Source: Candidatus Nanopelagicus abundans (lineage in GTDB: Bacteria > Actinomycetota > Actinomycetes > Nanopelagicales > Nanopelagicaceae). Taken from it: a DNA stretch of 64,000 nucleotides. The DNA is taken from NCBI RefSeq assembly GCF_002288305.1, contig NZ_CP016779.1, positions 806,001-870,000 of the forward strand, in the 5' to 3' direction. Of this stretch, positions 50,980 to 52,621 are shown in pieces (positions within the stretch are counted from its first letter, which is position 1; the number at the start of each line of letters is the position of its first letter). The notes beneath the pieces are model-generated. The model made no database searches. It was not told where the DNA came from and saw only the letters and a list, made by a program, of their open reading frames with translations. Both the position numbers and the translations under genes were made by a program.

Positions 50980-52392
50980 TTAAGAATCAAATCCCAAACC
51001 AAGTCGGTCTAATAACTTCAGCCACAAATTACGTTTTCCTTCATTTTTATCAGCCCTGGTAATTGACCATTGAGTAAGCCTGATAAATAAAAATCTAAAT
51101 GGCTCTGGTGGAAATGGAATTGGTTTGTGTTTAACCATAGACAATCCTGTAGCTTCACTTTCAATACCATCTAATAAATCCAGCATGGTGGATGCACCAA
51201 ATCTAGTTGTAGCAACACCAAGGCCGGTGTAGCCAAGTACGTAGGCAACTTTGCCATCGAAATCTGTTCCCCAAAATGGTGAAAACCTTGAGCAGGTATC
51301 AATTGCTCCACCCCACCCATGGGTAAATTTAATTCCAGCTAATTGTGGAAAGGTTTTAAAGAAATTTGTTGCAAGCCTGGCATAAGTAAGGGGCCGAGTT
51401 TCATACTCAGATCTAACCTTGCCAGCGTAGTTATAAATTGCATCATAACCACCCCATAAAATCTCATTCTCTTTAGTTAACCGGTAGTAGTGGAACTGAT
51501 ACCCAGCATCGGATAATCCCTCTCTACCTTTCCAACCAATACTTTCTAACTGCTCAGCAGTTAATGGCTGTGTTACTAATTGAAAGTCATAAACTGCAAT
51601 TACATACTTTTTCACACTCTTAACAAGAGGCGTGTAGATATTGGTGGCCAGAGCCACCTTATTTGCTCTAATTGATCCATAGGCACTTTTAACAATTATT
51701 TGCTCACCATCTTGGATTAACTCCTCAACTTTAGAGTTTTCATAAATCTTCACACCGAGCGAGAGACAAACCTTCTCTAGTCCCCAAACTAATCTGGCCG
51801 GATCAACTAAGGCCGTGCCATCATGATCAAAGAGTGCTCCCTCATAAATTGGTGATTTAACCAGCGCTCTAATCTGCTCTTTATTTAACACCTCAACTTG
51901 ATCACCAGTCTTATTTCTAGCAACTGCTTCCTCTTTTAAACCAGCCATCTGCCATGGGGCAACTGCAACCCGTAGCTCACCATTTCTTTCAAAATCACAA
52001 TCGATCTTGTATTTCTTTATTGTCTCCTCAATCGCGTCAAGATTTTGCCTACCTAATTTTTCAATAGTTACCATCTCATCGGCAAAGCGGGTGTAACCAT
52101 TAACAAAACCATGAGTAAGAGAGCCATTACAAAAGCCGCCATTACGGCCTGAGGCGCCATTACCAGTCTCACGTTGTTCAATTATTACAACCTCACGCTT
52201 TGGATCTCGCTCTTTAGCAAGTAGAGCTGTCCAAAGACCGGTGTATCCGGCGCCGACAATACAAAGATCAGTTTCTATTTCACTGGTTAGGGATGAATGA
52301 GAGTCAGGCTCTAATGGATCTGCATCTAACCAATAAAGCGCCGGCTGAAGATCAGATAATGAATTAAGAACAATTGGATTAATGGCTGGCAT
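50980..52392 (-). CDS. FAD-dependent amine/amino-acid oxidoreductase (DAO family, PuuB-like)
   Basis: A 470-aa flavoprotein. The dinucleotide-binding motif DLCIVGAGYTGLWTALLA is near residue 40-57, followed by the ATG/'GNGASGRNGG' FAD-contact segment typical of DAO enzymes, and a late GYTGLGVATTRFGA motif. The closest type is gamma-glutamylputrescine oxidase or related oxidases of amines; the exact substrate is not visible. I place the start at the ATG 52392, directly after a ribosome site GGAG that is part of a strong RNA stem; an in-frame upstream start at 52422 would read through that structure. Likely controlled translationally by the leader. Confidence 0.82.
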   Translation of the reverse strand: MPAINPIVLNSLSDLQPALYWLDADPLEPDSHSSLTSEIETDLCIVGAGYTGLWTALLAKERDPKREVVIIEQRETGNGASGRNGGFCNGSLTHGFVNGYTRFADEMVTIEKLGRQNLDAIEETIKKYKIDCDFERNGELRVAVAPWQMAGLKEEAVARNKTGDQVEVLNKEQIRALVKSPIYEGALFDHDGTALVDPARLVWGLEKVCLSLGVKIYENSKVEELIQDGEQIIVKSAYGSIRANKVALATNIYTPLVKSVKKYVIAVYDFQLVTQPLTAEQLESIGWKGREGLSDAGYQFHYYRLTKENEILWGGYDAIYNYAGKVRSEYETRPLTYARLATNFFKTFPQLAGIKFTHGWGGAIDTCSRFSPFWGTDFDGKVAYVLGYTGLGVATTRFGASTMLDLLDGIESEATGLSMVKHKPIPFPPEPFRFLFIRLTQWSITRADKNEGKRNLWLKLLDRLGLGFDS

Positions 52393-52470
52393 GGGCTGAC
52401 TCCGGTGTGAACCGGATTCCACCCCTTTGCATAATTATCAGTGGCCCGGGTCCTCCGGAGTCCACACCCA
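52392..52470 (-). promoter_or_regulatory. Candidate cis-regulatory RNA (riboswitch-like) before the FAD oxidoreductase
   Basis: GACTCCGG (52398-52405) pairs perfectly with CCGGAGTC (52455-52462), 8 bp. On the transcript the 3' arm contains GGAG, the ribosome site 7 nt before the ATG, so the pairing hides it. Two competing helices are possible: CCGGT (52402-52406) with ACCGG (52411-52415), and GGTGTG (52404-52409) with CACACC (52463-52468). The region is far more GC-rich than its surroundings. The combination suggests a translational switch. I cannot assign a known riboswitch class; some strings recall cobalamin elements but order does not match well. Confidence 0.6.
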
Positions 52471-52570
52471 TAACGCAGATCTTTATCTAGCAATCTGTTT
52501 TTCGTCACAGTTACATCTTTATCTTACTCTAACTAAACAGTTGTATCCAAAACAACACAGAATTAAGCAT

Positions 52571-52613
52571 AAAAAATCCCCCGCACTCTAGGAGTGTGCG
52601 GGGGATTTCTTTT
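52571..52613. terminator. Bidirectional intrinsic terminator after pstS
   Basis: ATCCCCCGCAC (52576-52586) and GTGCGGGGGAT (52596-52606) form an 11-bp stem, extended by A-T pairs, with a 9-nt loop and T-runs on both strands. It lies 9 nt after the pstS stop and separates the pst operon from the oxidoreductase leader. Confidence 0.92.
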
Positions 52614-52621
52614 TTACTTAT

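Follow-up and report, generated by a model that had tools for sequence, protein, structure and literature searches.

Genomic context of the oxidase gene

The window is a 64,000-nt stretch of the genome of Candidatus Nanopelagicus abundans, an acI actinobacterium whose assembly consists of one contig of 1.16 Mb; the acI family is among the most abundant lake bacteria. On the minus strand of the window lies a gene for a FAD oxidoreductase, directly preceded by a leader RNA that is matched by covariance model R1 with 105 bits (E 9e-28; Table 1). The earlier assignment of the gene product to the DAO-type oxidases is borne out by its Pfam match, while the nearest NCBIfam models, TIGR03329 and NF050086 (putative aminophosphonate oxidoreductase and L-pipecolate oxidase), both score far below their cut-offs, and a sequence comparison with solved structures at E 1e-10 gave no match. 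Judged by this protein, the nearest named relative is Candidatus Planktophila sp. BS7 (Candidatus Nanopelagicaceae; 90%). In one relative (locus L011, genome G289), undetermined bases (XX) near the start of the DAO frame leave the N-terminus uncertain.

Table 1. Features of the leader and its oxidase gene, in window coordinates.
Feature	Position	Strand	Sequence, basis and remarks
DAO-family FAD oxidoreductase	50980..52392	-	470 aa; ATG 52392-52390; PF01266 E 2e-55
Whole conserved leader RNA	52390..52512	-	covariance model R1; 3' end is the start codon
Probable sigma-70-like promoter	52521..52550	-	-35 TTGGAT 52550-52545, 18-nt spacer, -10 TAAGAT 52526-52521; read from sequence
Stem P1, 5' strand	52503..52510	-	CUGUGACG; pairs with 52468-52475; 6/8 pairs vary on both sides
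Stem P1, 3' strand	52468..52475	-	CGUUAUGG; covariation
One-sided 5-nt bulge between P1 and P2	52498..52502	-	AAAAA in the window, mostly AACNA/AANNA elsewhere (alignment A3)
Stem P2, 5' strand	52492..52497	-	CAGAUU; 6/6 pairs vary on both sides
Stem P2, 3' strand	52476..52481	-	GAUCUG; covariation
Stem P4 outer, 5' strand	52462..52465	-	GUGG; swap test favours the native strands (z -3.4; 0/300)
Stem P4 outer, 3' strand	52441..52444	-	CCAC; covariation, swap test
Invariant core, inner P4 hairpin	52445..52459	-	UCCGGAGGACCCGGG; CCGG-AGGAC-CCGG; invariance, hence pairing without covariation signal
Putative Shine-Dalgarno (SD)	52420..52428	-	AAAGGGGUG; 16S 3' tail GGATCACCTCCTTTCT; kept with P3 in reduced leaders
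Hairpin P3, 5' strand	52411..52416	-	UCCGGU; 2 pairs vary on both sides; relatives have other hairpins in the equivalent position
Hairpin P3, 3' strand	52401..52406	-	ACCGGA; same basis as the 5' strand
8-bp helix, 5' arm	52455..52462	-	GACUCCGG; real complementarity, no covariation; overlaps P4
8-bp helix, 3' arm	52398..52405	-	CCGGAGUC; overlaps P3; includes GGAG

In most genera examined, the genes are ordered aminobutyraldehyde dehydrogenase, PotD, PotA, PotB, PotC, the leader with the DAO gene, and a ureohydrolase, with a GABA transaminase gene opposite. The best solved relatives of the ureohydrolase are a 'probable agmatinase 2' and a guanidinobutyrase, and, judged from the protein families, the set would make up a coherent pathway of amine uptake, oxidation, aldehyde oxidation and urea removal, leading to GABA. 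Polyamine ABC transporters have been reported in all four first-completed acI strains (PMC5301498). The window genome retains the operon at ~793-802 kb, but there the DAO slot is taken by another gene and the start of the ureohydrolase gene occurs in an additional stray copy, whereas the DAO gene and leader are found ~60 kb away, behind pstS; the two were thus relocated together, so that the leader stays with its gene. The slot itself (locus L204, genome 791500-803500, outside the window) holds an ORF of ~409 aa or more with an HEFFH-like motif, and the duplication of approximately the first 25 ureohydrolase codons beside this ORF suggests an insertion. Between pstS and the leader, at 52571-52607 of the window, there is a strong GC hairpin with a T-run on both sides, by its look a bidirectional terminator. 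At other loci, a TAnnnT hexamer is present before P1 at the place equivalent to that of the probable promoter.

Distribution of the leader

Among 296 genomes of the family, the covariance model, built from 19 leaders, detected the leader in 121, including 54 of the 108 high-quality ones, compared with 81 by plain DNA search; the oxidase itself is present in 142 of the 296. The same oxidase gene follows the leader in every locus context read, and several relatives have no leader. The leader is usually present in single copy per genome, and in the apparent two-copy cases seen the copies lie on small contigs or contig ends, so that true duplicates are not established; a second match in genome G293 is weak and lies inside an unrelated coding sequence. 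In a class-level draw of 395 genomes, all 21 matches fell within the family, and in a phylum-level draw of 396 genomes the window genome was the sole convincing match; further matches, at E 0.008-0.04, have an incomplete core and resemble chance matches. A search of viral contigs returned no match. Unlike widespread riboswitch classes, the leader is confined to a single gene within the family; this and its absence from several relatives were counted against our best explanation.

Covarying stems and an invariant core

Structure statistics are based on an alignment of 87 distinct leaders (A3). The conserved element starts ~40-50 nt further upstream than the region of the 8-bp helix on which the preliminary description had centred, and two extra stems, P1 and P2, are found there. 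Across P1 and P2, two-sided changes occur at 12 of 14 pairs, with 96-97% of the cells paired, and in a test in which strands were swapped between genomes the native pairing was clearly better (z -10.6 for P1, -10.7 for P2). P1, P2 and P3 together reach a covariation score of 0.452 with 14 two-sided pairs, against at most 0.121 for slid alignments, and none of 500 shuffles was as good. G-U cells far outnumber A-C cells in P1 and P2 (146 vs 27), which identifies the minus strand as the RNA strand, and for the same reason a reading as a DNA operator only was rejected. A conserved, structured 5' leader with covariation, as expected of a riboswitch, is therefore present.

The outer part of P4 encloses the invariant core, and its variants still pair (GUUGA/UCAAC, GUGGU/ACCAC, GUGGG/CCCAC, GGGCGU/AUGCCC and others). 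Strict-column pairing is lower for P4 (81%) because of a bulged A in one group, and one measure, the number of pairs with two-sided change, was not above shuffles. Within the 15-nt core, 13 positions are identical in 87/87 distinct leaders, and the other two each differ in one leader. Among further candidates, a hairpin GGGGU/ACUCC beside P1 was rejected, its covariation being no better than that of shuffles, and so were helices that would join the variable linker or the P2 loop to another part of the leader, none of them being convincingly better than swapped ones.

An Rfam scan, the check proposed with the preliminary description, found no Rfam 15 family at or above gathering threshold for the leader. 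A relaxed scan of 52300-52620 likewise yielded no specific match to the leader on the minus strand; the one overlapping match was a weak plus-strand BjrC174, and nearby His_leader and Thr_leader matches are below threshold and correspond to the pstS-side terminator hairpin. On comparative sequence evidence, the leader is a real, uncatalogued and strongly conserved structured cis-regulatory RNA, and it likely controls translation of the oxidase.

The start-site module

The conserved AAGGGGUG (minus strand 52428-52420) is complementary to the 16S tail, the usual sequence of which is present in the genome, and is probably the main SD; GGAG, taken for the ribosome site in the preliminary description, is not conserved as an SD and probably plays no main part. 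In 87/87 leaders the SD sits 23-27 nt before the AUG, unusually far, as in mRNAs of the polyamine modulon, with P3 in between. For P3, the swap test gave z -3.2, one compensatory change from G-C to A-U is seen (UCCAGC/GCUGGA, genome G150) and the top pair changes several times; the inner pairs are almost invariant, which was counted against our best explanation.

Some relatives have the SD and hairpin without P1, P2 and core, with repeated losses. In a group of g11 genomes of this type, GAGGUGA is combined with UUUCCGG...CCGGAAA, and more distant oxidase genes that lack the rest of the leader have GUGGGUGA with GGUCGGC...GCCGACC or similar; in genomes G178 and G200 the SD and hairpin are gone too. 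This suggests that the start-site module may be the older part, to which P1, P2 and the core were added for regulation, an ordering that we infer. In the g11 group (L083, L085, L178-L182, L185-L190), a near-palindrome ACTACTAGTAGT, or ACTACTACTAGT in some, lies ahead of the SD. The idea that the SD reads GGGGUGA only where the core is present fails, since in G125, G126 and G192 the core occurs together with GAGGUGA, by which core-SD pairing is weakened there, another point against our best explanation.

Across the family leaders in A3, oxidase codons 3-5 strongly favour xxC ATC GAC when compared with the other codons of the gene: where codon 4 encodes Ile, 89 of 97 cases are ATC, against ~30% at other positions of these genes, and at codon 5 GAC accounts for 79 of 90, against ~20%, both uncorrected for kinship. 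From this bias a start-codon hairpin CGAUG...CAUCG is possible, although it is absent in the window's genus. An upstream ORF in the leader was rejected, as starts and frames are not conserved and many leaders read NTG GGG TAG.

Predicted competing folds

According to the preliminary description, an 8-bp perfect helix includes GGAG and looks like a translational OFF switch. The arms, GACTCCGG at 52398-52405 and CCGGAGTC at 52455-52462 in forward-strand letters, are indeed perfect reverse complements; GGAG lies 7 nt ahead of the AUG at 52392 and the 3' arm ends 5 nt ahead of it. On the minus strand, a fold of -42.1 kcal/mol is predicted for the 111-nt region; shuffled sequences gave -33.5 +/- 3.6 (z -2.38), and 197 of 200 folded less well, so that local stability is above chance but modest, and no more than suggestive. 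In forced folds of the window sequence, competition between helices is predicted, with the P4/P3 state at -42.4 and the 8-bp-helix state at -46.1 kcal/mol. A structured leader with predicted mutually exclusive folds at the start of the oxidase gene stands, whereas the helix as its conserved structure does not: across 87 homologues its covariation score is 0.005, below shuffles, its swap z is -0.6, and outside the window's genus it never reaches its full 8 bp. Although this perfect helix gives the lowest predicted energy for the window sequence, with neither covariation nor a GGAG conserved as SD, a switch built on it is very improbable. The OFF direction is not supported either: the SD is not part of any stem of the conserved fold, with which an ON switch agrees at least as well.

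In 78 of 87 leaders the P4/P3 state is predicted to be more stable than the core-SD state; the mean difference is 4.1 kcal/mol, and 27 leaders are within 3 kcal/mol. Since the predicted energies are close, alternative folds are plausible in each leader. The core-SD pairing is invariant across leaders and so carries no covariation signal, which also counts against our best explanation, and the conserved evidence favours the P1/P2/P4/P3 fold.

Proposed mechanism and alternative explanations

We propose that the leader is a family-specific cis-acting RNA controlling oxidase translation by the fold, switch and amine signal set out here, a reading to which we give a probability of roughly one half. 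In the fold that the comparison shows, the bulged hairpin P1/P2 is followed by outer P4 around the invariant block and by P3 between a strong putative SD and the start, where P3 would shorten the 23-27 nt spacing and thereby allow the SD to function. In the alternative fold, the invariant block would pair with the SD (ACCC/GGGU) and with the P3 strands (CCGG), by which the SD would be hidden and P3 broken; in the window's genus, the 8-bp helix may be an analogous, stronger alternative to this pairing. A signal stabilising the P1/P2 and P4 fold would turn translation ON, and we hypothesize an ON switch on these grounds. The signal would most likely be a small molecule of amine breakdown, such as agmatine, putrescine, spermidine, 4-guanidinobutyrate or guanidine, since in most genera the neighbours of the gene serve polyamine uptake and breakdown; given the polyamine/agmatine operon in relatives, the amine suggested in the preliminary description is a sensible guess at the ligand. 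The stronger claim, a new riboswitch class in which a polyamine or guanidino ligand frees an SD working across a bridging hairpin, so that a breakdown enzyme is switched on at the level of translation, is tentative and should be regarded as possible rather than probable.

The same features could belong to a binding site for a regulatory protein, for which the oxidase is one possibility, that contacts P1/P2 and the invariant hairpin and controls ribosome access. One gene per genome, the narrow distribution and the short invariant hairpin block fit such a site as well as an aptamer, yet no candidate binder was identified and the same genomes lack a second site before another gene, which leaves this explanation unlikely, though one to be reckoned with. 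Two others appear less probable still, both to the same degree. Polyamines might, with no specific pocket involved, stabilise the bulged hairpin and help the distant SD to reach the AUG, as the spacing of 23-27 nt, the bulged 5'-UTR hairpin and the polyamine breakdown gene would have it; the invariant 15-nt block and narrow association, however, demand more sequence specificity than this mechanism needs, and the hairpins described for it lie at the initiation site, whereas the bulge here is ~80 nt upstream of the SD. Alternatively, the folded leader could be a constitutive translation enhancer or standby site that stabilises the mRNA or recruits ribosomes with no sensing, in keeping with the loss of the leader tolerated by several lineages and with GGAGGA in the core, which resembles an SD; a 15-nt block without variation, however, is seldom required by such enhancers, and the closeness in energy of the alternative folds also speaks against it.

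Comparison with known systems

A literature search of partial coverage found no description of the present leader, and the acI genome paper scanned THI, FMN, cobalamin and AdoCbl models only (PMC5301498). As a strongly covarying leader whose core is invariant and which is absent from Rfam, it offers a small, testable RNA linked to the uptake and breakdown of dissolved amines, and its layout of SD, hairpin and AUG would make a clean case for testing start-site bridging. The spermidine riboswitch, a four-stem SAM-I variant by which transcription is stopped at synthesis genes in Bacillota (PMC10853860), likewise concerns a polyamine-related gene, but the leader has other stems, neither a SAM-I match nor the four-stem SAM-I architecture, and precedes a breakdown gene. 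If it were a true polyamine sensor, it would be a second natural polyamine-sensing class as far as the searched literature shows, and one that works at the translation of a gene for breakdown. With the guanidine riboswitches it shares a possible guanidine/agmatine-linked ureohydrolase in its operon, although it matches no Rfam class. The polyamine modulon of E. coli comprises mRNAs with a distant SD or a bulged hairpin (PMC7177335), both of which recur here as a distant SD and a bulged 5'-UTR hairpin, whereas no invariant core or family-wide conserved architecture is described for those mRNAs (PMC7177335). The leader differs from translational riboswitches in serving one gene in one bacterial family, in the hairpin between SD and AUG and in its hypothetical ligand, but it has in common with them a 5'-UTR position, covarying stems around an invariant core and, as predicted, alternative folds that overlap the SD.
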